Of a DNA stretch of 64,000 bases, positions 30,203 to 52,923 are shown piece after piece. Positions within the stretch are counted from its first letter, which is position 1. The number at the start of each line of letters is the position of its first letter. Both the position numbers and the translations under genes were made by a program. The stretch is from Pseudomonas sp. FP1742 (GTDB lineage Bacteria; Pseudomonadota; Gammaproteobacteria; Pseudomonadales; Pseudomonadaceae), in the NCBI RefSeq assembly GCF_030687145.1, contig NZ_CP117460.1, positions 4,278,001-4,342,000 on the forward strand, in the 5' to 3' direction. The notes below the pieces were generated by a model. That model ran no database searches and was not told where the DNA came from. It saw nothing but the letters and a program-made list of their open reading frames with translations.

Positions 30203-30278
<76 letters not shown>

Positions 30279-30348: not shown

Positions 30349-30440
30349 CGTTTTTGCGTTCTGTCGGATTCCGGTGGATACCAGCCATTTTAAGGGTAGA
30401 TTTTGGGATAAAGGTCAGTTCGATAAAAGGGAGTACCCTT

Positions 30441-35505: not shown

Positions 35506-36915
35506 ATGAATGCTTCAGATATCAGCGCAAGGTGCTCAGTCATGGACGTCGTAAACATGGAAATGGAACATTATCATCTCGTCGGAATCGGCGCTGGCCC
35601 CGCAAATTTGAGCCTGGCAGCGTTACTCCACAACAACGAGAAAGCTCCAAATTTGTTTATTGATCAAAAGCAGCAGTTCTCTTGGCACGACGAACAGATG
35701 CTGGATGGAGCTACATTGCAGGTTTCAATATTTAAAGACCTGGCCAGCCTTTCTGATCCAACGAACCGCTTTACTTTTCTTTCCTATCTTCATGACCAAG
35801 GGCGAATCTATCACTTTCTCAATGCCCAATTCGCTCAGGTACCCCGTCGAGAATTTAGAAACTACTTAGCTTGGGCTGCCGAGAAAAATGAAAACGTAAT
35901 ATTCGGCGAAAAAGTTCTGCATATTAATTTCAATGACGCTTTTATCATTAAGACTAATAAACGCACCATCACCGCCAACAATATAGCTATTGGCGTGGGT
36001 ACCCAACCTTGGGTGCCAGAATTTGCTAAGCCGCACCTTGGAAAAGAGAATTTTCACATTTGTGAATATCTGCAGAAGTCCTCCAATCTTGCAGGTAAAC
36101 GAGTTGCTGTCGTTGGCGGTGGACAATCTGGCGCGGAGGTGTTCCTGGACCTTCTGTCCAGACCATTTCACGAGCGCCCGTCCCAGATCTGCTGGATTTC
36201 GCGCCGTAGAAACTTTTCCCCGATCGATGATTCAACCTTCACCAATGACACCTTCATTCCAGATTACTCTAACTACTTTAATCAACTCCCCCCCAGTGTC
36301 CGGAATAAAACAATTAAGGAAAACATCCTGACCTCCGATGGGATATCCGAACACACGCTACGAGCGATATATCAGAAAATTTACTATTCTCGCTTCGTCG
36401 ACAATGATGGACGTGCTATAGGCTTATACCCAAACCGCAGCGTCCTAGATATTACACCTTCGAAAGATATAGCCGGCGAATGGAAGTTGACGTTGATCCA
36501 TAACGACTTTCCAGAACAACCCGAAGCTCTGGAGATCGATGCCGTAGTTTGGGCCACCGGCTTCAGCCCCGCAAGTAAGGACTTTCTTGCGCCACTGAAA
36601 GAACGCCTGCGCAGCGAAGGCGGTGAGTACGTAGTGGATGATGATTTCGCAGTACAGTGGGATGGACCGGCGAATAGAAACATATTTATGCAAAATGGTG
36701 TGCGCGGCCAGCGTGGGCTTCCTGATGTCAATTTAAGTCTGAATGCCTGGCGGGCGCAGCGCATTGTTGGACGACTCCTCGATAAAGCCCAACCCAAAGA
36801 GCAATTGTCCTCGTTCATAACATGGAAAGGACTAAAACCTGATGACGTAACAGAAAGTACCGTCTCATCATTAATCGGGTTCGATACTTTAAAAGTAATG
36901 TCTAACGGACGCTAA
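35506..36915 (+). CDS. L-lysine N6-monooxygenase (lysine/ornithine N-hydroxylase family)
   Basis: The protein has 469 residues. FAD binding: HLVGIGAGPANLSLAALLHN (about 24-43). NADPH binding: GKRVAVVGGGQSGAEVFLDL (about 198-217). The late motif VVWATGFSPASKDF (near 350) and PDVNLSLNAWRAQRIVGRLL close the family pattern; WHDEQMLDGATLQVSIFKDL is the typical substrate/cofactor stretch. The family N-hydroxylates the side-chain amine of Lys or Orn. Lysine is inferred here from the neighbours: the next two genes are a DAO-type flavoenzyme and a cupin-MetRS fusion, as in hydrazine-forming clusters, and a lysA gene lies in the island. The start could also be ATG 35542 or 35557. Confidence 0.9.
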   Translation: MNASDISARCSVMDVVNMEMEHYHLVGIGAGPANLSLAALLHNNEKAPNLFIDQKQQFSWHDEQMLDGATLQVSIFKDLASLSDPTNRFTFLSYLHDQGRIYHFLNAQFAQVPRREFRNYLAWAAEKNENVIFGEKVLHINFNDAFIIKTNKRTITANNIAIGVGTQPWVPEFAKPHLGKENFHICEYLQKSSNLAGKRVAVVGGGQSGAEVFLDLLSRPFHERPSQICWISRRRNFSPIDDSTFTNDTFIPDYSNYFNQLPPSVRNKTIKENILTSDGISEHTLRAIYQKIYYSRFVDNDGRAIGLYPNRSVLDITPSKDIAGEWKLTLIHNDFPEQPEALEIDAVVWATGFSPASKDFLAPLKERLRSEGGEYVVDDDFAVQWDGPANRNIFMQNGVRGQRGLPDVNLSLNAWRAQRIVGRLLDKAQPKEQLSSFITWKGLKPDDVTESTVSSLIGFDTLKVMSNGR

Positions 36916-36943
36916 GCAACCTAAGTTAATAGTGGGACTCATT

Positions 36944-37975
36944 ATGACTTCAACAGATATTGCAATTGTTGGCGGCGGTATCGTGGGCGCTATGATTGCG
37001 ACTCGCTTGGCAGAACAGTATCCAGAGAAATCGATCACTGTTCTGGAGCGAGATCTGATTGGCACCGGGGCTACAACTCGATCGGCCGGGGTACATTTTC
37101 CGCGAGGGGTATCAGAGCGTGTACGTTTCATGGCCGAGCAAAGTCAGGAGTATTATCTACAACTGAAAGCAGAGACTGGAGCGCCAATATTTCCGGTACC
37201 CATGACACTGATAGCTTCACCCGAACAGCAATCGCAGATCGAACTGTGCTACTTGGCCAAGGCCGAATTAACCTCGATTCCTCGGGAGGCCCCGGAATTA
37301 GCTGGCATATCCATCCCTAGCGATTCCATGATATGGCGGGTGAATAATGCGAGTTTCGCTGATGTTGCCGGATTAACCGCGCAACTTTTCAAGCGCCTAC
37401 GCAACCATATATCACTTTTTGAAGGTGTCCGGGTCAATAAAATTTCTCTAGGCGATGATTATTGTCTAACCCTTAGTACTGGAGAGAAGATCCGCGCCGA
37501 TAGGGTCGTCCTTGCGCCCGGCTCATGGGTTAACGAACCTGCCTGGCGACATTTTTTATTCGATCTGCCTATTAAAATAAAGAAAATCGTAGCCGTTCAT
37601 ATCGAAGCTCCGGTTTCAACTACAGATGGCATGACAGTATTTCACAACGAAGATGCTTTTCTGCTGCCTCGTCATGATCGAGGTCACTGGCTATTTAGCT
37701 ACACCTGTAATGAATGGGATGTAGACCCTGGAACAATTAGCCGCTCCATTTCTGAGCAAGACCTAACTGAAGCAAGATCAATTTTGTCACGCTACATGCC
37801 AGAATTTGCTGAAAGAATCAGCTCTGGTCGCGTGTTCTGTGATGCCTATAGTTCAAACCGAGAACCAATAGTCGAAGCACTGGATGGCACTGGACTCATA
37901 TTTGCGGGAGGAGCCAATGGCTCCGGATATCGCTTGGCGCCTGCGATTGCAGCACAAGTAGTAAAACTCATCTAA
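36944..37975 (+). CDS. FAD-dependent oxidoreductase, DAO/glycine-oxidase type
   Basis: From ATG 36944 the protein has 343 residues. The N-terminal Rossmann motif is TDIAIVGGGIVGAMIATRLA, followed by ERDLIGTGATTRSAG, where glycine-oxidase-like enzymes contact FAD. The C-terminal GLIFAGGANGSGYRLAPAIA is the second FAD motif. In the s56-p1 and triacsin pathways a homologous flavoenzyme is thought to cleave the Lys-derived part from the N-N adduct, releasing a hydrazino acid and 2-aminoadipate semialdehyde. The role here is inferred from order and family. It starts 28 bp after the hydroxylase stop. Confidence 0.88.
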   Translation: MTSTDIAIVGGGIVGAMIATRLAEQYPEKSITVLERDLIGTGATTRSAGVHFPRGVSERVRFMAEQSQEYYLQLKAETGAPIFPVPMTLIASPEQQSQIELCYLAKAELTSIPREAPELAGISIPSDSMIWRVNNASFADVAGLTAQLFKRLRNHISLFEGVRVNKISLGDDYCLTLSTGEKIRADRVVLAPGSWVNEPAWRHFLFDLPIKIKKIVAVHIEAPVSTTDGMTVFHNEDAFLLPRHDRGHWLFSYTCNEWDVDPGTISRSISEQDLTEARSILSRYMPEFAERISSGRVFCDAYSSNREPIVEALDGTGLIFAGGANGSGYRLAPAIAAQVVKLI

Positions 37976-38003
37976 ATATTTTAGTTATACATGGAGTGTA
38001 CAA

Positions 38004-40019: not shown

Positions 40020-40129
40020 GGTGGTGGGGATGCTCGCGCTTCAGTTGTGAACTGATAGAAGTATCAGTTAATTCAATTTTTTTAGCACTGAAAATCGAGT
40101 CTTCAAGAACTCATACAAGGATAAAATAA

Positions 40130-40744
40130 ATGAAATGGCAATCTCAAATATCTGAACACCTGGAAAACGAACATGTCCTTTTGCGTCCGGTGTTGGAGTC
40201 AGACAAAGAAGCTGTTTATGCATTAGCGCAGGATTCAGAAATCTGGACCTATTTTGTTTTCAAGGTCAGTAATCTGGACGAATTCGACGATTTTTTCAAC
40301 GCGATGCTCTCTGACCATGCCGCAGGTCGTCGTGTGGTGTATGTCGTTATTGACAAAAAAACTCAACGAATTGCGGGAAGTATGAGTTATGGCAATTTGG
40401 CCGAGGCGGAAGCACGGCTAGAAATAGGTTGGTCCTGGTTGGGAAGCGAATTCCGTGGGAAGGGTATCAACCACTGGGCAAAGTTTCTTCTGATGGAGCA
40501 AGCATTTGAGAAACTGGAAGCTCTCAGAGTTGAGTTTAAAACAGATATATTGAATACACGCGCGCGTTCTGGTTTGCGAAATATTGGTGCTACAGAAGAA
40601 GGAACCCTAAGAAGCTTTAATTTCATGCCTGGTGGTCGCCGTCGGGATGCAATATTTTATAGCGTCCTTGCAAGCGAATGGCCAGATGTTAATGCACAGC
40701 TCTCTCAGCAGTCAAAATTTAGCGCAACGAGAAAAGTTTTGTGA
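40130..40744 (+). CDS. GNAT-family N-acyltransferase (RimJ/RimL-like)
   Basis: The protein has 204 residues. VLLRPVLESDKEAVYALAQD opens the GNAT fold; EIGWSWLGSEFRGKGINHWA contains the acyl-CoA loop (about 98-116); and TDILNTRARSGLRNIGATEE is the RimL-type region. It moves an acyl group from CoA to an amine. In triacsin assembly a GNAT enzyme acylates (succinylates) hydrazinoacetic acid before loading on a carrier, so an acyl mask on the hydrazine is a reasonable guess here. AAGGATAAAATAA precedes the ATG. It overlaps the next gene by GTGA. Confidence 0.85.
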   Translation: MKWQSQISEHLENEHVLLRPVLESDKEAVYALAQDSEIWTYFVFKVSNLDEFDDFFNAMLSDHAAGRRVVYVVIDKKTQRIAGSMSYGNLAEAEARLEIGWSWLGSEFRGKGINHWAKFLLMEQAFEKLEALRVEFKTDILNTRARSGLRNIGATEEGTLRSFNFMPGGRRRDAIFYSVLASEWPDVNAQLSQQSKFSATRKVL

Positions 40745-41766
40745 ATAAGACGGTTAGCTATGTAAACCTACACGGGACTCCCTTCGAACGGGGGGAGCAG
40801 CATGGCAAAGCATTGGCAGAATCACTTCGTTCGTTTGTTGACGACGGGCGTAGTCGCATAGATTCGCTAACTCGAGAGCCGTTAACCAGTGATAGTCTTG
40901 AAAAGACTATCAACACTCATAAAGCCGTAGTCGAGGAGTATCTTCCAGATATCGCTCGTGAGGTAGAAGGTTTAGCCGTTGGTGCAGGCATCTCGCTCCA
41001 AGATGCCTGGATGTTGCAACTACGCCGAGAAATTATTGGTTACAGCCGAATGACACTTGGCGACTGCTCAACATTCGCATCTGTCGCAGCTGAACCAATT
41101 CTTGCTCAAACGGTGGATTTGAACGGCAATCTCGACGACTTCATCAGCGTTCTGGATATTAGGGGGAGCGCCCAGCGCTCCCTTGTCCTGAGTTACGGTG
41201 GCCTTTTGGGTTACTTGGGAATCAATGACGGTGGATTAGCCGTAGGTCTAAATCTCGTTTTAGGCGGTGCTTGGCAGCCAGGTATTCCTCCGTACTTGGC
41301 AATCCGCCATTTGCTGGATACGGTGAGTACGGTCGAGGACGCCGTTGAGATACTTCGGACGCTTCCATTGTCAAGCTCGCGGTCATTTACGTTATGCGAC
41401 AGGAATCAAGCGCTTGCGGTAGAAGTGTTAGGTGATGAACTTCGCATATTAGAAATATCACCTGTAGCGCATACAAACCACTTCTTGCATCCAGACTTTG
41501 CTTCAGATGATCAAATCAATGTGTTCGCCCGAAACTCCTCGAATCGGCGGCTTGATGCAATATCGCAGTTAGCAAGTCTGATACCAAATGATGAGAAAAT
41601 ATGTTTCAACGCCTTCTCTTTACCGCCACTTTGCGTTTCTGATATCGGTGATATCCGTCGTGAAAGAACGGTCTCCGCAGTCGTGATGTATCCAGGTAGA
41701 GGGGAAATGTACCTGCGACCCGGAGATCCGTCCCTATCAGAAACTATCCGATTCTCATTAAATTAA
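40741..41766 (+). CDS. C45-type Ntn hydrolase / acyltransferase (isopenicillin-N acyltransferase fold)
   Basis: The GTG start overlaps the GNAT stop (GTGA). The protein has 341 residues. VNLHGTPFERGEQHGKALAE is the family opening; TLGDCSTFA places the nucleophile at Cys109, which would become N-terminal after self-cleavage between Asp108 and Cys109; AQTVDLNGNLDDFISVLDIR and HTNHFLHPDF match substrate-pocket motifs of the C45 group. Members hydrolyse or exchange amide acyl groups. Tight coupling to the GNAT gene suggests that this enzyme removes or swaps the acyl group the GNAT puts on; that is inference. Confidence 0.82.
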   Translation: MNKTVSYVNLHGTPFERGEQHGKALAESLRSFVDDGRSRIDSLTREPLTSDSLEKTINTHKAVVEEYLPDIAREVEGLAVGAGISLQDAWMLQLRREIIGYSRMTLGDCSTFASVAAEPILAQTVDLNGNLDDFISVLDIRGSAQRSLVLSYGGLLGYLGINDGGLAVGLNLVLGGAWQPGIPPYLAIRHLLDTVSTVEDAVEILRTLPLSSSRSFTLCDRNQALAVEVLGDELRILEISPVAHTNHFLHPDFASDDQINVFARNSSNRRLDAISQLASLIPNDEKICFNAFSLPPLCVSDIGDIRRERTVSAVVMYPGRGEMYLRPGDPSLSETIRFSLN

Positions 41767-41834
41767 CTTACTCAAGATTTTTTTGAAGTAAATGGAAGAC
41801 CTATGCACTCGCTGAGTTAGCCAAATTACATTTG

Positions 41835-43049
41835 ATGGGCCAAACCAAAAAAAAGGCGAGCCTTCCGTTATACGATGCCCGCCATTTTAATCGCTATGAA
41901 CAACGAAATCATCAGGGCAAGATAATGGGCATAACGGTACTGAAAAATCTGACCGCAAAGTTTCGCACGGACCATCAGGTGTCTTTTAATATTTGCCTGG
42001 ACACCTTCGACAAACGGACGGATGCCGATTCTTTACGCAAAAAATCGGAGTTTCTGAACCATTTAGAACAACAGCACCAATCTTCAGTAATGTTCAACGT
42101 GATAAACCCTGGAAGTGAACTACTCGCTAATCTTATTCTGGACCAGGAGGAAAGCTTTCCCAGTCCGCCCCCCCGAGCAGCCCCCGATCAATCCCCAATG
42201 TTCGAGTCACAGGAAATTGCAGGTAACAAGTTCATACGTATTAATCCTAACAACAGTAAATGCACATTGGTGCTCTTAGGTCCAATAGGACTTTCATGGC
42301 GCGTATGGACAACAATGCTACCCGGCTTGCACCGCTGGGATGTTGTAATTCCGCAATATTCCTCTACTGACTTTGAAGAAGGACGACAGACAGCGATAGG
42401 GTCGACCGAAGAGGACAGCGATAATGTGGCGGTAATTTTAAAAAGTCTTCAGTCTTCTTCAATTACAGTGGCAGCGTGGTGCGATGGAAATGATATCGCA
42501 GTTTCCTTGGTCAATAGAGGAGATATCAAAGCCAAATCATTTGTCTGCATATCGCCAAGCTTCAAGACGACTAAAAAATTATTAGCATATGAATCCGAAC
42601 TGATAACTGCACTACAAAGCGTTGTAGACAAGCCCGCATTTTCTTCTATTTACGCGGGACTATTCCGAAATTCACTCAATTCAAATGGCATTGAAGAGAA
42701 TGCAATTATAGACCAGGACGCCGTTATTCTCGACACATTAAGAAAACCTAGTTGGCATGCAAGGAAGCTTATAAACAGCGTCTACCTGCAACCCAACTCT
42801 TTGGCGTTTTATGCTAAACGGTATTTGAACAAGATAAATTTGGAGATCAACAAAGCCACATTCAAAGGAGTGTCGACATACCTGATTCAAGGCGAACTGG
42901 ACAATATTGTCGACAATCGCGAGGCTGAGTATTTCCTAGAGTCACACGGAATTTCTTATAAACGAATATGCAGTCTGCACTGCGGTCACTACACTCTCAT
43001 TGATCAACCTGAAATAATTTGGCGTGTATTGGATAAGCTAAGCCAATAG
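41835..43049 (+). CDS. Alpha/beta-hydrolase-like protein with Cys nucleophile position
   Basis: The protein has 404 residues from ATG 41835 (ATG 41925 is an alternative). The first 130 residues are unlike hydrolases. After that LVLLGPIGLSWRVWTTMLPG starts an alpha/beta fold. The nucleophile elbow reads VAAWCDGNDIA, so Cys (about residue 216) replaces the common Ser; the acid is in IQGELDNIVDN and the histidine in LHCGHYTLIDQPE. Cys-type members include dienelactone hydrolases and some transferring thioesterase-like domains. A role in releasing a carrier-bound intermediate or in acyl transfer is possible. It ends the plus-strand operon; a terminator follows. Confidence 0.72.
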   Translation: MGQTKKKASLPLYDARHFNRYEQRNHQGKIMGITVLKNLTAKFRTDHQVSFNICLDTFDKRTDADSLRKKSEFLNHLEQQHQSSVMFNVINPGSELLANLILDQEESFPSPPPRAAPDQSPMFESQEIAGNKFIRINPNNSKCTLVLLGPIGLSWRVWTTMLPGLHRWDVVIPQYSSTDFEEGRQTAIGSTEEDSDNVAVILKSLQSSSITVAAWCDGNDIAVSLVNRGDIKAKSFVCISPSFKTTKKLLAYESELITALQSVVDKPAFSSIYAGLFRNSLNSNGIEENAIIDQDAVILDTLRKPSWHARKLINSVYLQPNSLAFYAKRYLNKINLEINKATFKGVSTYLIQGELDNIVDNREAEYFLESHGISYKRICSLHCGHYTLIDQPEIIWRVLDKLSQ

Positions 43050-43095
43050 GTTTGTGTTTTGGCACAAAAATTAATGTGCCCCCCCTTAGAATGAC

Positions 43096-43134
43096 AAACT
43101 CCCTTCGAGCCGACCAGCACATCAAAGGGAGTTT
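43096..43134. terminator. Bidirectional terminator between convergent cluster operons
   Basis: AAACTCCCTT pairs perfectly with AAGGGAGTTT; T and A runs flank both sides. Confidence 0.85.
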
Positions 43135-43156
43135 TCGTACGAGATGTCAGAAGAAA

Positions 43157-44158
43157 TCAAGCTTTTGAGTAACACTTTATATTATCAATAAGCTCAGAGT
43201 CTAGCGCGTGTAATTTACGAACTGCATCTAGAAATGACGCTGAGTTCAACTTTTGCAGACTAGGACTTCTGAGCAAGAATATTTTAAGAGAATAAGAAAT
43301 ACGTTGCACTTCTGCAAAAAGAGCGGTGGTGATTTCATTATTAAATCCGCGTTTGTTTCGGTAGAAATTATACGTCTTTCGAGATCCGTGAAGCAGAGAA
43401 TAAAAATCGTGCAGGATTTTCGATTTTACTGCGCCGGAATCAAAGGGAGACTCTATGAATGAAATCATAAAATCTGTAGGATCCTCGTACTCGAGTTGCT
43501 CAATGTAACTACTGTGCAACTGAGCATCGTCGCTTGGAAGGCTATCAGTCAAAGTGACTTCTAGAACGGTCTTCTCTGTATCATTATCAAAAAAATCAGA
43601 TAAATTTTTCAGTCCGTAGTGGTAAGTCCTGAGAATACTATCTTTGTCGTCGTCTATCAGTATGGCTTGATCAGCCATAAGCTCACCAATTAGCGCAAAG
43701 TGCGACAAATGCTTATTTAAGTACTCAGGACAATGAGGCAAATAATAGACATCCCCTGATATCAAATAAAATCTATTAGCCAGCGGCTCGTATTCCTTAA
43801 GGAAATCTTGAAAGCTGCTGTATCGCTTTTCCCGGACAAGTATTCCATTGGCCGTAAGGATAGCTTCATCAAAAAAAGAGCTCGTGAACTCATACTTTTC
43901 TGACTTATTGCAAATGATCTGCTCAGCAATAAGGCCAGGACTAACTAAAGCATTGTGAAATATAGCAGAAACCTCTTTGCCGAAATCGCTGGCCCTTACC
44001 AACACATGCCGCTGCCCACAGTTCAAAAAACTTCTATCAAAAAGATTCTTATCATATTCGAAAAGTTTTCCGTCATTCATTATCGTTCCCATGATTCTCG
44101 AAAGGTAATTAAGGAGATCTAATCTATAAAATTGCTCAGTACCGCCCACATCAGACAC
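43157..44158 (-). CDS. Unrecognised 333-residue protein, possible papain-like acyltransferase
   Basis: I do not recognise this family with confidence. It is soluble, acidic and AT-rich in codon use. Two spots resemble the BtrH-type N-terminal domain (papain-like fold, acyl-ACP to amine transfer): a Cys near residue 47 (FLNCGQRHVLVRASDFG) and a His near 153 within HFALIGELMADQAILIDDDK. The C-terminal third is helical. It is the last gene of the ACP-ligase-ACP operon, 37 bp after the second ACP, so a part in handling carrier-bound acyl groups would make sense. Confidence 0.65.
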   Translation of the reverse strand: MSDVGGTEQFYRLDLLNYLSRIMGTIMNDGKLFEYDKNLFDRSFLNCGQRHVLVRASDFGKEVSAIFHNALVSPGLIAEQIICNKSEKYEFTSSFFDEAILTANGILVREKRYSSFQDFLKEYEPLANRFYLISGDVYYLPHCPEYLNKHLSHFALIGELMADQAILIDDDKDSILRTYHYGLKNLSDFFDNDTEKTVLEVTLTDSLPSDDAQLHSSYIEQLEYEDPTDFMISFIESPFDSGAVKSKILHDFYSLLHGSRKTYNFYRNKRGFNNEITTALFAEVQRISYSLKIFLLRSPSLQKLNSASFLDAVRKLHALDSELIDNIKCYSKA

Positions 44159-44195
44159 GTAAAAGTTTTAATCAATAGCTACCCTACAAGACATT

Positions 44196-44444
44196 CTATG
44201 AGTGGGTCTGAATGAGAGAAACCAGACTGCCGACCGTGTCTAACTTGGCAAGATCTTGTTCTGTGAGTCGCGCCAGATCGACTTCATGCTTTTCGCATAA
44301 CTCAGTAACTATAAAAATCAGCATCATGGACGTTACGTTGTGAATATCGAATAAGTTATCTATTTGATCGATTTTCACGTCCCCCTCCAATTTCGCAAAT
44401 TTTTTGAGGGTTATCTGGACTGATTTTTCGATGGCTTCATGCAT
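44196..44444 (-). CDS. Acyl carrier protein 2 (atypical attachment motif)
   Basis: From ATG 44444 the protein has 82 residues, four-helix acidic ACP size. The phosphopantetheine site should be Ser39 in HNVTSMMLIFIVTELCEKHE; the usual Asp before Ser is Thr. The ATG overlaps the ligase stop in the octamer ATGCATGA, the same junction found between ACP 1 and the ligase, which supports this start over the longer frame from 44477. It probably carries the substrate activated by the ligase. Confidence 0.78.
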   Translation of the reverse strand: MHEAIEKSVQITLKKFAKLEGDVKIDQIDNLFDIHNVTSMMLIFIVTELCEKHEVDLARLTEQDLAKLDTVGSLVSLIQTHS

Positions 44445-45954
44445 GATAAAGGTTTTCCAGTTGTTCTTTGAATTCATTAATGATTACTTTGCGACGCACT
44501 TTAAATTGGTTAGTCAGGTATCCGTTCGCTACAGTAAACTTATTCGTAGTAAAACTAAGCTTTCCGATACGCTCATGACTAGATACAGTATTATTAAACT
44601 GAGAAACTTGCTCTATAACGAACTCTTCCTTTGAACTATCTTCTAAAGAAATAAGTGCCGTAAGAAACGGCTTATGCATCCCATACAACACCGCATGAGC
44701 AACGCCTTCCAAATTGGCAAGGCGGGATTCGATACTACTCGGCGGAACTTTTTTGCCGCTGTCAAGTACAATCAAATCGTCCACGCGCCCCGTAATAAAC
44801 AAATAACCGTCCTCATCTAGGTAAGCAAGATCACCTGTACTTACGCAGTTTTCACTTACAAATGTTCTTTCACTTTCGCCTGGCGCGGAAATTTTGTATT
44901 TGTTATTTACAGGGTATTCAGAGTAAATGATGAGCTCCGAGTTTTCATTGATAATGGCTTTTTTATAATCCAGAAGTTTACCAACACTTCCGGGGCGGGA
45001 ATGGCCAGGGTAGTTTTTAGAGACGATACATACCTCATTCATCCCATAACCTTCATAAAGAGGAATATAAATATCTGCAAAGAAATTAATTACGGCAAGG
45101 TCACAAGGTGCAGAGCCCGTCCAGAGGTAGCGAATATTCTCGCCCAAAATAGACGTGGCACAATCCTTGGCTGAAAGATCTGAAGTATCACGCATCTTCA
45201 AGTTGATTATTTCAAAAACCTGTTTATAGAAACCAGGTACTCCCATTACTACTGACGGCTTGAATTTTTTTAACGCCATGAAGACTAAACTATTATTGGT
45301 CAGCACAACGTCATGATCAAACAGCAATGCCGAATAGATCCAGTATCGTTGTTGCAACAACGACAGAGGAAGGAAAACCAGCAAACTATCGTCATTCGTA
45401 TGATTGAATATTTTCTGGACAGATTGTATTGAGTAACTAACACTCTCCGCCGTTGCTTCTAGGCATTTTGGGTTACCTGTGCTACCAGAAGTAAACTTTA
45501 GCGAAAAAATATCTTTCGAACTGAACTCATAGGCGCTATCTTCCGCTGCGGCGTCAATCGTATTTAAATTTTCCAATAGGTCGTTAAAACGGCAGATCGG
45601 GTGTAACTGAGAGACGTAATCGAAATCTAGAAAAATATGTCGGATATTCAGATCAGCAATGAGCTCCTCATTGCCCATGAAGAAATCTTTATCCATGCCG
45701 GCAACGATAACTCCACGGTGCTTCGCCGCCAAATCGATCACGATCCAAGTAAGAGAGTTTGCACCACTTATTATGATGGTGTCTCCTGGATTTATATTTC
45801 TATCGGCTAACCATCGGCTCGCTTTCAAGGCTAAGTTCAATAGCTCGTCTAGATCAAGCTCCATGGATTTTCCAAACTCGAGCAGCTTAAAGCGTCCACG
45901 ACGGTTCAAGTTTCTGTCAAAAATATTGTTAATTATAAGTGATCTTTCATGCAT
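44437..45954 (-). CDS. AMP-forming acyl/aminoacyl ligase (ANL superfamily)
   Basis: From ATG 45954 the protein has 505 residues. A3 is LKFTSGSTGNPKCLEAT, A5 YEGYGMNEVCIV, A7/A8 STGDLAYLDEDGYLFITGRV then DDLIVLDSGKKV, and A10 NGYLTNQFKVRRK with the catalytic lysine region. It should adenylate a carboxylic acid and load it on one of the flanking carrier proteins. Substrate is not readable; an acylated hydrazino acid is the obvious candidate. A 24-base longer start at 45978 is possible, but ATGCATGA overlap and upstream GGGGAA favour 45954. Confidence 0.88.
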   Translation of the reverse strand: MHERSLIINNIFDRNLNRRGRFKLLEFGKSMELDLDELLNLALKASRWLADRNINPGDTIIISGANSLTWIVIDLAAKHRGVIVAGMDKDFFMGNEELIADLNIRHIFLDFDYVSQLHPICRFNDLLENLNTIDAAAEDSAYEFSSKDIFSLKFTSGSTGNPKCLEATAESVSYSIQSVQKIFNHTNDDSLLVFLPLSLLQQRYWIYSALLFDHDVVLTNNSLVFMALKKFKPSVVMGVPGFYKQVFEIINLKMRDTSDLSAKDCATSILGENIRYLWTGSAPCDLAVINFFADIYIPLYEGYGMNEVCIVSKNYPGHSRPGSVGKLLDYKKAIINENSELIIYSEYPVNNKYKISAPGESERTFVSENCVSTGDLAYLDEDGYLFITGRVDDLIVLDSGKKVPPSSIESRLANLEGVAHAVLYGMHKPFLTALISLEDSSKEEFVIEQVSQFNNTVSSHERIGKLSFTTNKFTVANGYLTNQFKVRRKVIINEFKEQLENLYHA

Positions 45955-46186
45955 GACCGGATTCCCCGAACGCGTCATAGATACTCTCTAAGCTCGCAAA
46001 GTTTTCTGGATTGAAGTCTTCCAGCCCCAAACTGATGCCCAAATTATCTTCCATGTAACCGATAAGCGCGACCAGCATAAGTGAACTAAATCCGAACGCC
46101 ACTAATAGCCCTTGGGCGGGGATGGTTTCGATTTCAAGCCGAGTGGCGATGAAGTTATGAATCGCATTTTTTTTATCCTCATTCAC
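45947..46186 (-). CDS. Acyl carrier protein 1
   Basis: The protein has 79 residues. The helix-II site reads AFGFSSLMLVALIGYMEDNL; Ser35 before Leu is the expected phosphopantetheine serine, with Ser in place of the usual Asp. Downstream ISLGLEDFNPENFASLESI is typical ACP helix III/IV. It is the first gene of the minus-strand operon and is divergent from the phosphopantetheinyl transferase gene with only 14 bp between start codons. Confidence 0.83.
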   Translation of the reverse strand: MNEDKKNAIHNFIATRLEIETIPAQGLLVAFGFSSLMLVALIGYMEDNLGISLGLEDFNPENFASLESIYDAFGESGHA

Positions 46187-46200
46187 GATGGTCAGATCCT

Positions 46201-46908
46201 ATGTTAATGTTCCAATTAGACAATTTTCAGCTTCCTTGGCGAGTGGTTATAGTGAAAAAAGAAGTGCAGCAATCATATAAGGCGATCCAGGTTGACGACG
46301 TTACGACACTGCTGATCGAAAATATTGATCCTGCTCTGGACATCGAAAGTCTTGAGTTCCGCGCGCAAGCTCGCGGACACGATTCTGAACAGTTAGGCAG
46401 TAAGAGAAAAACTGAACATTTTGCAGCAAGAGAGGCGCTTTCCAAATTGCTGAAAACCATAGGCCGAGACAAAAATCTTTCCTATTCCTGGCCTTCGCGA
46501 ACAGCCCCCCCACGATTCGACGATTTGTCAATGAGTGTTGGGCACTCCGATAATCTGGTGATCGCTGGATTGACGAAAGGTAAAAACCGATTATCTCCGG
46601 AACTCGCTGAGTTTGTTAAGACCAGAGTTCTTACGGTAAACGATGTGTGGGACGAGCACACTAATCGTGAGGCTTTCCTCACAACAGTATTTTCATATAA
46701 AGAATCATTTTTCAAGGCCGTGAGCTCGCTTTTGAACTTTACGCATTTGCGGCTTGATATTTGCTCTGTAGTACAACTCGATGAAAATCATTTCCGACTC
46801 GCCTCGTTGCTGGATTCAATCGAAGTGGTCATTCACGGAAACGGCGTATTGGCTGACGACTATATTTATACTTGGGTAATCGTACGCGCTAAAGATGAGA
46901 TGAGATGA
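46201..46908 (+). CDS. 4'-phosphopantetheinyl transferase, EntD-like, altered metal site
   Basis: The protein has 235 residues from ATG 46201 (GTG 46252 is also possible). GSKRKTEHFAAREALSKLLK corresponds to the KRKAEHLAGR block of EntD, LSMSVGHSDNLVIAGLTKGK to the SHC region, and LTTVFSYKESFFKAVSSLL to FSAKESVYKA. It should attach phosphopantetheine to the two island carrier proteins. Where EntD has Asp-x-Glu of the magnesium site, this protein has NRLSPEL, so the Asp appears replaced by Ser while the Glu is kept. Activity is therefore likely but not assured. Confidence 0.8.
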   Translation: MLMFQLDNFQLPWRVVIVKKEVQQSYKAIQVDDVTTLLIENIDPALDIESLEFRAQARGHDSEQLGSKRKTEHFAAREALSKLLKTIGRDKNLSYSWPSRTAPPRFDDLSMSVGHSDNLVIAGLTKGKNRLSPELAEFVKTRVLTVNDVWDEHTNREAFLTTVFSYKESFFKAVSSLLNFTHLRLDICSVVQLDENHFRLASLLDSIEVVIHGNGVLADDYIYTWVIVRAKDEMR

Positions 46909-47620
46909 ACACAGGGATAGGTAAATACCCGTTCTTTCGCTGTGTAAATATCTTATTTTGCACTGGCGATGAGTGTAGTTCAGGCGAAAAAAAAATCGCC
47001 AAAGATACGAGCCAGCCGCTCTTTTGTCGTGAGGTGTCGCCGACGTGGCGAAGACCGAAGAAAGTGCACTAATTTCGTGCATAGTGTAGATATCCTCGCT
47101 TCCTTATGAGGGCAGGCATCATTGCCGATGATCTGATTTTACTTGCATAAAGAAACTACTACAAACCTCTTTATTTTACAATGCAAAATGTTGCGCCGTT
47201 CACTTTTTGTATCTATTTTTCGAGACTATGCCTTCGTGAGACAAGAGTCATTAAGCGACAAGCCTAATAACGTGAAAACCATGTCATTCTATGACTTTTC
47301 GTTACTAGACCGACGTTCATCTGAATGATAAAGTTCAAGTAGGGGATTTTTGTGAGTGACGAAATTGTCGGATGTTTTTAACCGATGAGTCGTGAAACGG
47401 AAAGGACATCCACAGGTACGATGAGCACCCTTCCTTTCGCACGTTTTTCTCGCTGCCAATCTGACCTGATAGGTGCTGCTGTCCAAAAAAATGGTGCAAA
47501 GTGCACCTCATGAAGAGTGCGTTTGAATGTAAAAGCGAGTTGATTTTAATGTTGGATTTCGGCAGAAAAATCACAAAAACACGCATCGCTTGATCATTTC
47601 ATAAACATCAAGGAGCAGGG
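46909..47620. other. AT-rich gap before the exporter gene
   Basis: About 710 bp without a supportable gene. It contains a GGCGAAAAAAAAATCGCC mini-hairpin near 46,984 and a perfect GGTGCA-AAG-TGCACC palindrome at 47,493-47,507, 113 bp before the exporter ATG, which may be an operator. Confidence 0.45.
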
Positions 47621-48847
47621 ATGAACAGGGTTCACAGGTTGATTTTGCAATACGCGTCCTTATATGCTATCGACGGATTTATCACCGCCGTAAGTGCATT
47701 AGTATTACTCAGGACCGGCGCCAGCGCGATGGAGCTTTCCATTGCAGTATGTTTGATTACCATTCCAAGGATCGTGGTAGGCCCATTTTTTGGGGTGATC
47801 GTAGATAAGGTAGACCGTAAGCGTTGTATGTTTTTTTCCACCCTTGCTCTTTTCTCGGGGTTGCTTTTTGCAGCATTGTCAATATCTAATATTTTCAGCT
47901 TACCGGTCGTGATTGCGATATGGCTGTTGAATTTGCTCACAGCGGTAAGTGTCTCTATGAGTACACTCGCATCCAGGGTATTACTCAGAAATTACTCAAC
48001 GCTTGAGAATCTTGCGAAAAATAATGGAATGATACAGGCAGTTACATGGCCTTCTTATTTTGCCGGTGCCGGACTTGTCGGCTTGGTCGGCGACTTTAAT
48101 GTTGCATTCTGGATTGTCACGGCGTTCACAGCATTGATGTTTTTGGCGATAGGCTTTTTTTTCGAAGACGCGAAGGGCGACTCTTCTAAAAACCAAAGCC
48201 TTCATTTCTTCAGCGATATTGCGGAAGGTTATCGAGAACTGAAAACCCACCAAAGCCTTCATGTGCGAATGAAATATTATCCCATCTTCACTTTTTACTG
48301 GCGAGGGATGATAAATATCCTTCTGCCTTTGGTGGTAGTCCAACAGTTAAATCTGCCGAACTCCTATTACGGAACTCTGCTCTTTGTTAACGGTGCCTTT
48401 GAACTACTTGCCAACATTGTGGTGGGTCGGATCTCTTGGCTCAGTCACTTCAAGAGTTCTTTCTGGTCAGAAGCTCTTTTGCTCTGTGGCTTGTCTATTA
48501 CATGTCTGGTAGTCTTCTTTCAATTTCCACCGGAGTGGTTGTACGCATCCGTAGCCATTGTCGGTATCGCGGCAGCATTCGCGGACATCCCTTTCGCGAC
48601 AGAAATGCAATTGAAGATAAGCGGCCCCAACCAAGGTAAAGTCTTTAGTTTTTGGTATGCTTGGGGCGGTTTAGGTGGGGGAATTGGCACATTAGTAGTA
48701 GGTGCGTCTGTGGATGTACTAGGAATGAAAATGGCCTTGATGTGCCTAGTTGGCTTGCTGATCCCTGCTGCGCTTTATATCTTAAGTTATGGGCTTCGTC
48801 GAGCCAGCATGACGAAAAAGCAGGGAGAGTTTTTTGAACACTCATAG
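47621..48847 (+). CDS. MFS exporter
   Basis: This 408-residue inner-membrane protein shows about twelve hydrophobic helices. The loop between helices 2 and 3 has the MFS signature GVIVDKVDRKRCMFF; the N-terminus resembles the DHA/EntS-like MFS group (RTGASAMELSIAVCLITIPR). AAGGAGCAGGG precedes the ATG. Its place in the cluster suggests export of the product and possibly self-protection. It converges on the aminotransferase gene, with a shared terminator. Confidence 0.88.
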   Translation: MNRVHRLILQYASLYAIDGFITAVSALVLLRTGASAMELSIAVCLITIPRIVVGPFFGVIVDKVDRKRCMFFSTLALFSGLLFAALSISNIFSLPVVIAIWLLNLLTAVSVSMSTLASRVLLRNYSTLENLAKNNGMIQAVTWPSYFAGAGLVGLVGDFNVAFWIVTAFTALMFLAIGFFFEDAKGDSSKNQSLHFFSDIAEGYRELKTHQSLHVRMKYYPIFTFYWRGMINILLPLVVVQQLNLPNSYYGTLLFVNGAFELLANIVVGRISWLSHFKSSFWSEALLLCGLSITCLVVFFQFPPEWLYASVAIVGIAAAFADIPFATEMQLKISGPNQGKVFSFWYAWGGLGGGIGTLVVGASVDVLGMKMALMCLVGLLIPAALYILSYGLRRASMTKKQGEFFEHS

Positions 48848-48875
48848 AGTAAGATACTGATCTTTTATTATAGAC

Positions 48876-48910
48876 CCCAGAGACACTTAGATTATCTATC
48901 TATCTCTGGG
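48876..48910. terminator. Bidirectional terminator, exporter / aminotransferase
   Basis: CCCAGAGA and TCTCTGGG pair across a 19-base AT-rich loop between the convergent genes. Confidence 0.65.
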
Positions 48911-48930
48911 ACTTACCCGCTTGGATAGCT

Positions 48931-50058
48931 TTAAAGCAAAGGTGCGCTGACCTCGGCAAGGACCTCAACTAGCGAGTTACGAAATAGTTGCATTTCTTCC
49001 GACGTTCCGATTGAAACTCTTAACCACGACTCTGGGCCGACTTCACGAATCAGTACACCGCGCTTTATTAATCCTTCCCAAACAGCTCGGCGGTTTGAAA
49101 ATTGTCCAAACAGGATGAAGTTTGCATCCGAGTCTGCCGCAATCAATCCTTGTTCACGCAACCAGATAATTGAAAAATCCCGCTCCGCTTTCAACTGGTT
49201 TATTTTAGAGAGCAACTCTTCTTTGCCTGCAAGTGCTGCTCGAGCGGCAGCCTGAGTCAATGACGACAGGTGATAAGGCAATCGGGTCAACTTAATGGCG
49301 TCCACAATACTGGGCCCACTTGCGCAATAACCTAAGCGCCCTCCCGCGAACGCGAATGCTTTGCTCATGGTTCTGCAAACGACAAGGTTAGGAAATTCAG
49401 GTAACAGGTTCACCGCGCTCAATTTACCGTTTCGACGGAACTCGCCATAGGCTTCGTCGACAACGACAATTCCTGGTGCTACATTGAGTATCGATTCTAT
49501 TTCACTAAGTTCGAGAGCGGTTCCGGTCGGATTATTAGGTGAGGTCAGAATAATAATATGCGGTAAATGCTGTTCAACTTCGGAGATTACTTTCTGCATG
49601 TTTAAGGTGAAATTTTGTTCTCGCTCTACCGAAATCAATTGCGTGAGCGAGTTTCGACAGTACTCTTCGTACATTGCATAGGCCGGTGTAAAGACCATGG
49701 CTTTACGTCCTGGCCCACCAAAGACTTGCAGCAGTTGCTGCAGGATTTCATTTGAACCATTGGCGGCCCAGATATTATTGGCTTGAAGAGGCTCGCCAGT
49801 GTCGCTGCTTAAATAGTTGGCAAGTTCGGTTCTCAAGCTGAGAAACTCTCGATCTGGATAACGATTCATCTGCACTACCGCAACCGACACGGCTTCGGCA
49901 ATGGATCGCACTAATTCTGGGGACGGTGCGTACGGATTTTCGTTGACGTTTAGTCGCGCGATACATTCAAGCTGAGGGGCGCCATAAGGTGATAGACCTC
50001 GCAAATCATCGCGAATGGGTAGTTCTGATAATGGTGTTACTTTCCATGGCCTATGCAT
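48931..50058 (-). CDS. HisC-like class I/II aminotransferase
   Basis: From ATG 50058, which has AAGGAT at the right distance, the protein has 375 residues. LNVNENPYAPSPELVRSIAE is the HisC-type opening. SPNNPTGT (173-180), VVDEAYGEF (200-208) and TMSKAFAFAGGRLGY with PLP Lys233 are all present. Histidinol-phosphate aminotransferase homologues in clusters often serve other amino acids. Core histidine genes are not nearby, so a pathway-specific transamination or recycling of an amino-acid by-product is more likely than histidine synthesis. A longer frame to 50085 lacks a ribosome site. Confidence 0.85.
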   Translation of the reverse strand: MHRPWKVTPLSELPIRDDLRGLSPYGAPQLECIARLNVNENPYAPSPELVRSIAEAVSVAVVQMNRYPDREFLSLRTELANYLSSDTGEPLQANNIWAANGSNEILQQLLQVFGGPGRKAMVFTPAYAMYEEYCRNSLTQLISVEREQNFTLNMQKVISEVEQHLPHIIILTSPNNPTGTALELSEIESILNVAPGIVVVDEAYGEFRRNGKLSAVNLLPEFPNLVVCRTMSKAFAFAGGRLGYCASGPSIVDAIKLTRLPYHLSSLTQAAARAALAGKEELLSKINQLKAERDFSIIWLREQGLIAADSDANFILFGQFSNRRAVWEGLIKRGVLIREVGPESWLRVSIGTSEEMQLFRNSLVEVLAEVSAPLL

Positions 50059-50290
50059 ATCATTATCCTTCGGCGAATTGAGCATTATTGAAACAGCCTG
50101 GCATCAGGAACTGTCATATAGTTTTCGAGTACATCGTCCCTTCGATTCTCTATATGCACGTTGTGCTGTGCGCATCACCAATCCTAAATTGGAGACAATC
50201 AGTGACACGCATGCACGCTCTCCCCTAATTAATGGAAAAGGTCAACACTCATTTGGATAGGCACTTTTAGTGGAGCCAGGCTGTATATTT

Positions 50291-51583
50291 TTATAGATCC
50301 ATCTCTAACGCCAGCAAGTCTGTAAATGGTTGGGTACGTCGAATCAACCTGGCGTCGCCGCACTCGAGCAAGACTTCCGGCAATAGTGGTCGGCTATTAT
50401 AGTTGGATGACATGGAGGCGCCATAAGCTCCAGTGTCGTGCACGATCAAAAAATCGCCAACCTGAGCTTCGGGTAACAAACGAGGTGTGACGCCTTGCTC
50501 ATCTTGGGTAAAAATATCGCCTGATTCACATAACGGTCCTCCCACCACATAGGGAAGTTTTTGCCGACCAACCGAAGCACCCTGAGCATCCAGCAAGGTC
50601 ATATGGTGATAAGCACCATATAGGGTCGGCCGCATCAAGTCGTTGAAGCCTGCGTTCACCAAAATAAAATTTTGACGACCGGCTTTCTTGACCGCACGGA
50701 CTTCGGTGACTAAATAGCCTGACTCGGCTACCAGGAATCGGCCTGGCTCAATTTCCATTCGAACAGGATGGTTGAGTATCGCTTCAATATCCTTCCTGGC
50801 TTTGCCCCATGCTTTCGCATAGAGCTCAATATCCACCGATTCATCTCCCAGACGGTATGGAGTGGAAAGTCCTCCCCCGATTGAAAATGCTTCGATGTCG
50901 TGGTCGAGCGCCTTTACGGCCGCGACCATTGCACCACCGACTTGCTCCAGATGTGCGTAATCCACACCTGAACCGATATGCATGTGTAATCCAACCAGCT
51001 TTAATCCGAATTGGCGAATCACGCAGAGTGCTTCATCAATCTGATCATGCCATATGCCATGCTTGCTGTTTTCACCGCCTGTATTGGTCTTACGACTGTG
51101 CCCATGGCCGAACCCCGGATTAATACGCAACCAAACGCGGTGCCCCCGATGCTTTTCGCCCAGTTGGCGGAGCATATCGATCGAACCGGTATTAACCTCA
51201 ATGTTCAACTCAACGACGCGTCGCAATGTCGCCTCGTCAAATAAATCACAGGTCAGCACAATGCCTGCCGGCTCGCTAGCAGGATTGTATCCAGCGAGCA
51301 GCGCACGTTCGATTTCACCCAACGACACGGCATCGACCAGCACGCCTTTCTCGCGAATCAAACGGAGAATATGCAGGTTTGAGCAGGCTTTTTGTGCGTA
51401 CCGGATGACATCGAAGCCCTTCAATTGGTCGATTCGCGCTCTGATTGTCTGGGCGTCATAACACCATAGCGGCGTGCCGTGCTGCCTGACAGCGGAGATC
51501 AATTGCTGAAAAGAAGATGTATTTGGCATTGAAGTATTCGATCTGGAGTCGAGGAAGCCCCCATCATGCAGAGAGTTCTGCAT
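50291..51583 (-). CDS. lysA: Diaminopimelate decarboxylase (island copy)
   Basis: The protein has up to 430 residues (ATG 51529 is an alternative start). PLP Lys65 lies in RYAQKACSN. GLHMHIGSG (198-206), SIGGGLSTPY (234-243), MEIEPGRFLVAESGY and GGPLCESGDIF with Cys352 are the diaminopimelate decarboxylase signatures, so the enzyme should turn meso-diaminopimelate into L-lysine. The chromosome of a pseudomonad normally carries its own lysA beside dapF elsewhere; this copy in an island next to a lysine N-hydroxylase probably supplies lysine to the pathway. It is divergent from a LysR gene, as lysA is in E. coli. Confidence 0.88.
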   Translation of the reverse strand: MQNSLHDGGFLDSRSNTSMPNTSSFQQLISAVRQHGTPLWCYDAQTIRARIDQLKGFDVIRYAQKACSNLHILRLIREKGVLVDAVSLGEIERALLAGYNPASEPAGIVLTCDLFDEATLRRVVELNIEVNTGSIDMLRQLGEKHRGHRVWLRINPGFGHGHSRKTNTGGENSKHGIWHDQIDEALCVIRQFGLKLVGLHMHIGSGVDYAHLEQVGGAMVAAVKALDHDIEAFSIGGGLSTPYRLGDESVDIELYAKAWGKARKDIEAILNHPVRMEIEPGRFLVAESGYLVTEVRAVKKAGRQNFILVNAGFNDLMRPTLYGAYHHMTLLDAQGASVGRQKLPYVVGGPLCESGDIFTQDEQGVTPRLLPEAQVGDFLIVHDTGAYGASMSSNYNSRPLLPEVLLECGDARLIRRTQPFTDLLALEMDL

Positions 51584-52897: not shown

Positions 52898-52923
52898 TTC
52901 GAGTCCAGGTCGTGAGCCAGACA
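52898..52923 (+). repeat. attR of the tRNA-Asn island
   Basis: TTCGAGTCCAGGTCGTG then AGCCAGACA matches tRNA-Asn 30,256-30,282 with one G missing in the acceptor stem. Confidence 0.85.

Follow-up and report, generated by a model that had tools for sequence, protein, structure and literature searches.

A 22.6-kb stretch of the Pseudomonas sp. FP1742 genome is a tRNA-borne mobile genomic island, and three intact genes in it (A, B and C, at 35506-40019) very probably constitute an N-N bond-forming trio of the hydrazinoacetic acid (HAA) type. The island is proposed to encode a hydrazine pathway that halts before the hydrazone, the hydrazine being protected, carried, transferred and deprotected; this full model has about an even chance of being right. 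An intact hydrazine is probably attached to a small molecule, and the product is likely undescribed. The window, in which all positions are counted, is the whole stretch of 64,000 nt that was analysed (assembly GCF_030687145.1, contig NZ_CP117460.1, positions 4,278,001-4,342,000 of the forward strand).

The island and its probable N-N core

The island occupies 30273-52914 (22,642 bp) and sits in a tRNA-Asn gene. An integrase, the tRNA and direct repeats are all present, and the empty integration site is seen in two relatives. An earlier note on this DNA had rightly spoken of an island, but its extent is wider than was given there. The integrase start codon was picked by eye, the longest open frame beginning at 30270. 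The frames of genes A to O are all open (Table 1).

Table 1. Features of the island, with positions in the window
Feature	Positions	Strand	Evidence
tRNA-Asn(GTT), integration site	30203..30278	+	left att repeat inside at 30256-30272
Island tyrosine integrase	30438..31763	+	Pfam Arm-DNA-bind_3, Phage_int_M, Phage_integrase
A, lysine/ornithine N-hydroxylase (NMO)	35506..36915	+	Lys_Orn_oxgnase PF13434 1.3e-96
B, DAO-type flavoenzyme, Spb39/Tri27/AzsM type	36944..37975	+	DAO PF01266 7.5e-34
C, cupin-MetRS hydrazine synthetase, 671 aa	38004..40019	+	tRNA-synt_1g 4.2e-67 and Cupin_2 6.4e-14 in a single protein
D, GNAT, AzsS/Tri31/DobB type, predicted HAA succinylation	40130..40744	+	PF13302 1.5e-19
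E, C45 autoproteolytic amidohydrolase, AzsT/DobA type, predicted desuccinylation	40741..41766	+	Pfam AAT/C45; NF040521 223 bits, cutoff 85
F, alpha/beta-hydrolase-like protein	41925..43049	+	Abhydrolase_1 E 0.001, under its cutoff; relative named alpha/beta hydrolase
G, BtrH-like (papain-type) cysteine acyltransferase, putative	43157..44080	-	relatives match PF14399
H, acyl carrier protein, AzsQ-like	44196..44477	-	32% to Erwinia AzsQ over 69 residues
I, AMP-forming ligase, divergent AzsP/Tri29 type	44437..45978	-	PF00501 9.1e-33
J, second carrier protein	45947..46186	-	PP-binding 6.5e-6
K, phosphopantetheinyl transferase	46201..46908	+	ACPS PF01648 1.3e-6, over cutoff
L, predicted MFS exporter	47621..48847	+	PF07690 5.6e-23
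M, second, foreign HisC	48931..50085	-	PRK03317 545 bits, cutoff 409
N, second LysA (diaminopimelate decarboxylase)	50291..51583	-	TIGR01048 392 bits, cutoff 298
O, LysR-type regulator, divergent from LysA	51657..52586	+	PRK11013 470 bits, cutoff 288
Right att repeat	52898..52914	+	17/17 bases same as 30256-30272; empty site in relatives

Open frames and Pfam domains confirm the three genes as the earlier note had named them, and the 28-base gaps that it described hold both between A and B, with B starting at the ATG at 36944 (a longer open frame from 36932 is also readable), and between B and C. Its naming of the DAO partner as Spb36 is to be corrected, since the review gives Spb39. The assignment to the HAA type is borne out by orthology, motifs and sequence grouping with azaserine-type enzymes. 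A is 62-63% identical to the hydroxylases of three azs-type loci (L004, L006 and L009). In C, the cupin HxHx3E motif with its second His, the HLGH and KFSTS motifs and the zinc-knuckle cysteines are intact, so the loss of active-site residues envisaged in that note has not occurred. C is not an ordinary MetRS: cupin and MetRS-type Pfam domains are both found in at least 120 relatives among the matches listed, and the best other match in its own genome, an ordinary MetRS-like protein, is 26% identical to C and has no cupin part. The hydroxylase likewise lies outside any siderophore locus, no siderophore synthetase or NRPS domain being found among the 18 island proteins scanned with Pfam.

C shares no more than 65% identity with other proteins among the matches listed and is sister to the azaserine-type synthetases. 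As these are its nearest relatives, HAA formed from lysine and glycine is likely the first product of the trio. These two substrates are suggested by motif segments that C has in common with proteins of Glycomyces harbinensis (63% identical) and S. tsukubensis (62-63%). Fifteen sister proteins measure 737-767 aa against 671 for C, which is without their C-terminal extension, described as a carrier domain in a passage of PMC10445470, and so is not fused to such a domain. In precomputed Pfam assignments, PF00550 appears in one of 14 sister synthetases among the matches listed.

The flavoenzyme might instead cut the glycine side of its substrate, as reported for Apy10, yielding a lysine-derived 6-hydrazino acid and glyoxylate rather than HAA, and the later enzymes would then use that acid. 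The cleaved bond does vary among enzymes of this family, according to a passage of PMC11705231. However, B is 45-48% identical to nine orthologues compared and no outlier among DAOs, and the GNAT (65-68%) and C45 enzyme (53-58%) resemble those of the same three loci, all proteobacterial and azs-type; cleavage on the glycine side is thus quite improbable.

Predicted carrier-protein steps and missing oxidation genes

The GNAT, AMP ligase, carrier protein and C45 enzyme of the hydrazonoacetyl-carrier pathway are all present, the ligase in divergent form. The earlier note had also listed two carriers and a phosphopantetheinyl transferase, and these were found as well, H matching PP-binding only at E 0.1, below the Pfam cutoff. 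Judged by their sequences, D, E, I, H or J, and K match the known succinyl-HAA-carrier steps. Passages of PMC10445470 and PMC13061610 describe succinyl-HAA on a carrier for triacsin and dob, and report corresponding GNAT, ligase, carrier and C45 steps for azaserine and dob. E has GDCST at residue 107, and GDC[ST]T occurs in 7 of 7 aligned orthologues. Ligase I is 37-43% identical to nine ligases compared, and its substrate may not be succinyl-HAA.

No homologue of the acyl-CoA dehydrogenase (AzsF/Tri22/DobM), AzsE, AzsG or AzsO was found in the window or the island. In the azaserine cluster, AzsE is a diiron oxidase, AzsG a P450 and AzsO an NRPS. The island proteins scanned include no megasynthase, as had been stated before. 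The choice between a hydrazine, hydrazone, diazo or azo product, left open in the earlier note, can be narrowed: the absence of the hydrazone-pathway dehydrogenase and of AzsE/AzsG-type oxidases favours a product retaining the reduced hydrazine.

A trimmed azaserine- or triacsin-type route would read the same absence differently. An acyl-CoA dehydrogenase from elsewhere in the genome would make the hydrazonoacetyl-carrier, and F or G would release or transfer the hydrazone. The relationship of the synthetase and the retention of C45 enzyme and GNAT are in keeping with such a route, the dob pathway is thought to borrow a redox partner from outside its own cluster, and the genome has 14 dehydrogenase matches elsewhere, of which the best (39% over residues 112-389) could act in trans. 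Moreover, the Embleya locus L077 retains a C45 gene with no dehydrogenase match in about 98 kb, so that such an absence alone is not decisive. Nevertheless, the dehydrogenase is kept in the cluster in 13 of 14 other C45-bearing loci (loci not cut short), and the lack of AzsE, AzsG and AzsO homologues together with the diverged ligase makes the hydrazone route rather unlikely.

The missing azsE/F/G/O-type genes could also signify a decaying azaserine-type cluster whose late genes are gone and which yields no product. This is very improbable, given that the frames from A to O are open; that full-length relatives sharing 97-99% identity exist elsewhere for C, F and G (in a protein search with these three genes only); that carriers, phosphopantetheinyl transferase, exporter and G/F have been kept or gained; and that the checked motifs are present in C, E, G, HisC, LysA and the phosphopantetheinyl transferase.

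Candidate transferases and the proposed pathway

The acceptor and release steps are putative, so the 'complete route' claimed earlier is not supported. Genes F and G were not singled out in the earlier note, and much of the novelty rests there. The triad of F, read by eye, is likely Cys186 (in an AWCDG elbow), Asp326 and His355. G, also readable as a longer frame from 44158, has itself no Pfam match at E<=1, PF14399 (BtrH_N) included; its relatives P0002 (31% identical) and L066 (29%) exceed the PF14399 cutoff. Cys21, His124, His127, Asp143 and Asp144 of G are invariant in five aligned sequences and may be catalytic. The fold model of G is weak (pLDDT 51), and the structure matches made from it give no clear call of a papain-like fold.

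G-like genes stand beside MetRS-like, cupin, NMO and DAO genes in two clusters on Vibrio and Xenorhabdus plasmids, where no dehydrogenase or C45 matches were found, and another lies in Nonomuraea near a ligase and a carrier-like frame. The plasmid MetRS-like proteins are 27-31% identical to C, little above the 26% of the ordinary MetRS-like match; a synthetase role for them is suggested by the cupin, NMO and DAO genes next to them. The MFS adjoining the Vibrio BtrH-like gene is 32% identical to L.

In butirosin biosynthesis the order is to protect, carry, transfer and deprotect, and the proposed model follows it. By orthology, A would hydroxylate lysine at N6, C would link N6-hydroxylysine and glycine via an N-N bond, and B would split the product of C to give HAA. 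D would cap the hydrazine with a succinyl group, and I would put succinyl-HAA onto carrier H (or J), both carriers being activated by K. As the island is without a dehydrogenase, the chain is proposed to remain a protected hydrazine. G, perhaps with F and J, would then move succinyl-HAA to a putative acceptor, after which E would strip the succinyl group to give the free hydrazine and L would export the product. N, with O, would replace the lysine whose skeleton leaves as aminoadipate semialdehyde in each round, while M would either make the acceptor or stand in for a PLP enzyme poisoned by the hydrazine.

The extra LysA would then serve lysine supply, and the extra HisC either supply or self-protection. 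Both might instead be self-protection copies, replacing PLP-dependent enzymes inactivated by the product: hydrazines attack PLP, both are PLP enzymes only 32-36% identical to the host copies, and a search of 297 other genomes of the genus gave no HisC of the M type at E<=1e-90. On the other hand, HisC may be biosynthetic, and LysA suits lysine supply, its type occurring in 56 of 298 genomes of the genus (its own included), 51 of them outside the synthetase-bearing set. A protective role for the pair is therefore possible but doubtful. A LysA gene lies within the synthetase locus in 5 of 11 same-genus genomes with a synthetase.

Tentatively, the protect-carry-transfer-deprotect model can be extended to a new HAA branch that leaves the hydrazine unoxidised throughout. 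Succinyl-hydrazinoacetyl on the ACP would pass by BtrH-like transfer to a small acceptor and be unmasked as a free-hydrazine agent hitting PLP enzymes, HisC and LysA would be tolerant replacements, and the BtrH-like step would be common to the unrelated Vibrio and Xenorhabdus hydrazine clusters.

Relation to known systems

The azs-type clusters (azaserine azs/aza; Erwinia, Lonsdalea, Enterobacillus, Xenorhabdus, Pseudomonas sp. S30) have the same NMO-DAO-synthetase order as the island and in common with it the GNAT, C45 enzyme, ligase and carrier. Compared with these clusters, the island lacks the dehydrogenase, NRPS, P450, diiron oxidase and synthetase extension, its ligase is distant, its MFS has no match to the azs MFS, and F, G, J, HisC and LysA are extra. 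Triacsin, s56-p1 and dob have the HAA trio in common with it, whereas domains for a ketosynthase, a PKS, a dehydrogenase or a diiron N-oxidase are absent from the island proteins scanned. Butirosin BtrH, a papain-type cysteine acyltransferase using a carrier-bound N-protected acyl group (passages of PMC10318531), seems comparable to G; the acyl group and deprotecting enzyme are different, however, protection is by succinyl and not glutamyl, and the sequence link is indirect.

Passages of Iyer et al. 2010 (PMC2922099) place MetRS-cupin proteins with lysine N6-hydroxylase, GNAT, carriers, ligase and NTN, alpha/beta-hydrolase or BtrH-type transacylases, and list Pseudomonas syringae among organisms with MetRS-paralogue systems. 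BtrH-type partners of such synthetases were thus pointed out in 2010, although a Met-Lys peptide was predicted there and an N-N bond is predicted here. The por cluster of Pseudomonas orientalis pairs a hydrazine synthetase with an NMO, as does the island. Nine synthetases found in other genomes of the genus share just 31-35% identity with C, and their loci, where fetched, gave no GNAT, C45 or G matches. Negamycin contains a reduced methylhydrazinoacetic acid unit (passage of PMC12797225), so a reduced end product is not unprecedented; locus L071 of Streptomyces SAT1, which would suit negamycin, gave no GNAT, C45, dehydrogenase or G match.

In the described HAA pathways (triacsin, azaserine, dob, N-nitroglycine), HAA is oxidised further, to a hydrazone, triazene, diazo or nitramine. 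According to passages of PMC13061610, 469 putative diazo clusters have been compiled, and 129 with hydrazone-type enzymes, and the mining for hydrazone pathways demanded an acyl-CoA dehydrogenase Pfam in each neighbourhood. The island has the five other demanded Pfams but not this one, and would be filtered out by such mining.

Enzymatic N-N bond chemistry is an active research area, and the island, unlike most of its relatives, is without the enzyme that would oxidise the HAA unit. The prediction is testable with a few enzymes. A cluster that makes, protects and carries HAA without oxidation would open the way to reduced hydrazinoacetyl conjugates, and would also illustrate a butirosin-like protecting-group handling of a reactive hydrazine.

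Core trio and carrier steps

The earlier note had claimed a trio of a lysine/ornithine N-hydroxylase (A), a DAO-type flavoenzyme (B) and a cupin-MetRS hydrazine synthetase (C), and this assignment agrees with the domain content of the proteins: PF13434 in A, PF01266 in B, and a cupin together with a MetRS-like domain in C (671 aa). In a protein search with C, 7998 candidates were scored, with 974 reaching E<=1e-100. Among the best 120 of these 974, the closest are a 99% copy and then a protein of 65% identity, and each of the 120 has both domains. An ordinary MetRS is ruled out for C, as the relatives listed (best 120 of 974) are cupin fusions, and a siderophore locus for A is ruled out by a Pfam scan of the island proteins.

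In a tree of 134 sequences, 15 others are placed as sister to the pair of C and its 99% copy, with a support of 0.995 for the 17. The 15 form a group with a support of 0.662 and are all 737-767 aa long, versus 671 aa for C. Azs-type genes surround close relatives of C in Erwinia psidii, Lonsdalea, Enterobacillus, two Xenorhabdus (contigs that end before the expected azsE/F/G part) and Pseudomonas sp. S30. The cupin ligands and the HIGH-like, KMSKS-like and zinc-knuckle motifs of C match those of the Glycomyces harbinensis and Streptomyces tsukubensis proteins, species for both of which characterised synthetases are listed in the available part of a published account (PMC11705231). Because C groups with the azs-type synthetases and its motifs agree with those of the characterised species, hydrazinoacetic acid (HAA) made from lysine and glycine is, by orthology, the expected product of the trio. 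The suggestion that B is an outlier among DAOs, hinting at another regiochemistry, is ruled out, since the DAOs of three proteobacterial azs-type loci (L004, L006, L009) are themselves only 45-52% identical to each other.

According to excerpts of the azaserine and dob (an HAA/hydrazone-type cluster) studies, a GNAT succinylates HAA, an AMP ligase loads it onto a carrier, a C45 enzyme desuccinylates it and an acyl-CoA dehydrogenase dehydrogenates it; the two studies disagree in the step order and in the identity of the desuccinylating enzyme (PMC10445470, PMC13061610). The island carries a GNAT (D, 65-68% identical to those of L004, L006 and L009) and a C45 enzyme (E, 53-58%), as well as an AMP ligase (I), carriers H and J, and a phosphopantetheinyl transferase (K). 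Ligase I is an outlier, with 37-43% identity to the nine ligases compared. Seven of the nine come from loci with a dehydrogenase (L004, L006, L009, L011, L012, L014, L016) and have 49-70% mutual identity; the ligases of L015 and L017, both loci without dehydrogenase and C45 matches, diverge as well, with 42-51% identity to those seven. Carrier J was considered as a split-off carrier domain of the azaserine synthetases and rejected: a profile of their C-termini gives 5.2 bits, and one-to-one comparisons give at most 11 bits, a level that any two carrier proteins may share.

Oxidation genes in the comparison loci

No match to AzsE, AzsF, AzsG, AzsJ, AzsK or AzsO was found in the window at E<=1e-3 with the Erwinia psidii queries. 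Gene content was tabulated for 34 loci (the island, 14 genome, 6 Pseudomonas, 4 ligase- or G-containing and 9 plasmid loci), and 17 of them, the island included, have a C45 match. With L005 and L008 left out of the dehydrogenase count owing to contig ends, 14 of the 16 other C45 loci remain. An acyl-CoA dehydrogenase is matched in 12 of these 14 (in L076 at only 33% and 87 bits) and is annotated at the edge of the fetched stretch in L067; the Embleya locus L077 has no dehydrogenase match, and none of at least 45 bits in the 98 kb around it. The dehydrogenase is thus kept in 13 of the 14 comparable C45 loci and is absent from the island. Outside the island, the host genome gives 14 matches to the dehydrogenase, the best at 39% over residues 112-389, and an enzyme encoded elsewhere in the genome could act in trans. 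HAA clusters without the dehydrogenase occur in other forms: L015, L017 and L079 have a GNAT and a ligase, with neither a C45 nor a dehydrogenase match. Among the 34 loci, only the island combines C45, GNAT, ligase and the G gene.

The cluster on the Embleya sp. NBC_00888 plasmid (L077, L084, L085) resembles that of azaserine: besides C45, GNAT and ligase, it has an NRPS and a diiron oxidase. The Burkholderia stagnalis plasmid locus L067, with no synthetase match in the fetched stretch, is, judged by its genes, another hydrazone/diazo-type cluster.

Coordinates of features in the window and in the comparison loci
Feature	Sequence	Coordinates	Content
tRNA-Asn	window	30203-30278	followed by tyrosine integrase
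Repeat, tRNA 3' part	window	30256-30272	17 bases
Repeat, exact copy	window	52898-52914	17 bases
Mobile island	window	30273-52914	hydrazine genes inside
Second recombinase-like gene, short frame and inverted repeat	window	32674-33992 + 33943-34109	Integrase_1; short frame behind; 23-bp inverted repeat (96%), 121-base spacer
Different insertion	L043 (G005)	about 5717-13900	att remnant near 5717-5743
Burkholderia stagnalis plasmid	L067	9827-21368	ligase, carrier, GNAT, C45, two ketosynthases, alpha/beta hydrolase, diiron oxygenase, acyl-CoA dehydrogenase
Vibrio halioticoli cluster	L068	7892-22314	MetRS-like, cupin, NMO, DAO, class-III aminotransferase, FAD monooxygenase-like, BtrH-like
Xenorhabdus pXT29 cluster	L070	16428-28790 + 1116-2033	MetRS-like, cupin, NMO, DAO, class-III aminotransferase, FAD monooxygenase-like, BtrH-like
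Streptomyces sp. SAT1 plasmid	L071	5693-16998	NMO-DAO-synthetase adjoining lysine 2,3-aminomutase, methyltransferase, peptide ligase

The mobile island and its lysine genes

The window (G000:C1:4278001-4342000) lies within a 6.67-Mb genome of one contig. The 3' part of the tRNA-Asn is repeated exactly at a spacing of 22,642 bases, and the G+C content between the att repeats is 0.474 versus 0.607 in the left 30 kb of the window. Both flanks were compared with four relatives (L043, L044, L045, L046). The site is empty in two, L044 and L046, where the flanks join at a single tRNA-Asn. In L043 the flanks are ~8 kb apart, with a different insertion at the same tRNA-Asn site and an att remnant beside it; in L045 the tRNA-Asn was not found within the stretch compared. 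Because of the repeats, the integrase, the tRNA-Asn and the empty site in relatives, the segment is assigned as a mobile island. A 1.4-kb stretch without ORFs of at least 75 aa follows the inverted repeat at the second recombinase-like gene. No DNA nearly identical to 35506-46908 was found on plasmids. Between 42700 and 47700 a promoter scan gave 9 sites versus 11.1 in shuffles, and terminator-like elements number 7 versus 4.1.

In the DAO step, the lysine skeleton is lost as aminoadipate semialdehyde, as stated in the accessible text of PMC11705231. Saccharopine dehydrogenases are thought to supply lysine in the azaserine cluster (PMC10445470, in part), whereas the island has a LysA (N) and a LysR-type regulator (O) instead. 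A synthetase is found at E<=1e-60 in 11 of 398 same-genus genomes, its own included, and a LysA of the island's family is linked to it in five of the 11, within ~2 kb in G026, G029, G335 and G350 and at ~10 kb in the island. The other genomes, G127, G162, G190, G257, G309 and G346, show no LysA near the synthetase in the 14-30 kb examined. As a control, the island-type LysA occurs in 56 of 298 genomes, five of them with a synthetase, so its presence alone is common, and its linkage to the synthetase less so. In L056 (G335), L057 (G029), L081 (G350) and L083 (G026), an accessory LysA adjoins a divergent synthetase, 30-35% identical to C. The second HisC (M), 32-33% identical to its two best host matches, was found in none of 297 other same-genus genomes at E<=1e-90.

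Gene G and the proposed transfer

A search of 5.8 billion proteins, which requires shared short words, gave two relatives of the putative BtrH-like cysteine acyltransferase G at E<=0.001, one of them 99% identical. BtrH_N is matched by the other (P0002) and by a Vibrio relative, and G itself has no match; Cys21, His124, His127, Asp143 and Asp144 of G are invariant in five sequences. A scan of 369 genomes from the class (E<=1e-12) recovered no G apart from the window's own, and the 16 other C45 loci have no match; relatives are present in 3 of 72,556 plasmid records at E<=0.01. The predicted structure of G has the AziU2-U3 complex as its top Foldseek match (E 0.002 but TM about 0.25) and mostly 14-3-3 helical bundles in VIA-align; these matches were not used as evidence. 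A PDB sequence search with F and G gave no match below E 0.1. The neighbouring F appears to be alpha/beta-hydrolase-like, with a predicted Cys at the nucleophile elbow; its structure model is useless (pLDDT 32). The single relative listed, 97% identical, is named alpha/beta hydrolase (Pseudomonas coronafaciens), and F is weakly matched (E 0.001) by the Burkholderia alpha/beta hydrolase that lies beside an HAA-type GNAT and C45 in L067.

On two of the three plasmids with a relative of G, from Vibrio halioticoli (L068) and Xenorhabdus (pXT29, L070), a single gene run encodes a MetRS-like protein, an NMO (N-hydroxylase), a DAO and a stand-alone cupin. As the MetRS-like proteins have only 27-31% identity to C, it is from the neighbouring genes that we infer split hydrazine synthetases. 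Both clusters encode a class-III aminotransferase (annotated diaminobutyrate transaminase in pXT29) and an alpha/beta hydrolase, with no dehydrogenase and no C45 match, and possibly follow a 4-hydrazino-2-aminobutyrate chemistry like that of actinopyridazinone. On the third plasmid, from Nonomuraea, a ligase gene and a carrier-like frame lie close to the G relative, with no synthetase match in 47 kb.

From the genes, motifs, orthology and gene linkage, we infer each of the following reactions, their order and the role of G. A, C and B would convert lysine and glycine to HAA, to which D would add a succinyl mask. Ligase I would load the carrier H/J, with K activating. G, perhaps together with F, would then transfer the masked group to an acceptor, E would unmask it after the transfer, and the MFS exporter L would export the product. 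The succinyl mask would keep the nucleophilic hydrazine unreactive during the active-thioester stage. In butirosin, a glutamyl mask plays that protecting role.

The association of BtrH-type proteins with such synthetases is not new: as partners of MetRS-cupin systems, Iyer et al. had named transacylases of the BtrH type in 2010 (PMC2922099, as excerpted); a hydrazine-preserving transfer was not found in the literature searched. A reduced hydrazinoacetyl unit is known from negamycin, according to the portion available of PMC12797225, and the gene set of L071 would suit the needs of a negamycin-like molecule. A mining study demanded Pfam02770 in each neighbourhood, as its available text describes (PMC13061610), and would therefore have passed the island over. 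The trio and the carrier steps make the island a member of the HAA family, and the absent dehydrogenase places it outside the hydrazone branch. Its proposed transfer module is also seen in other probable hydrazine clusters.
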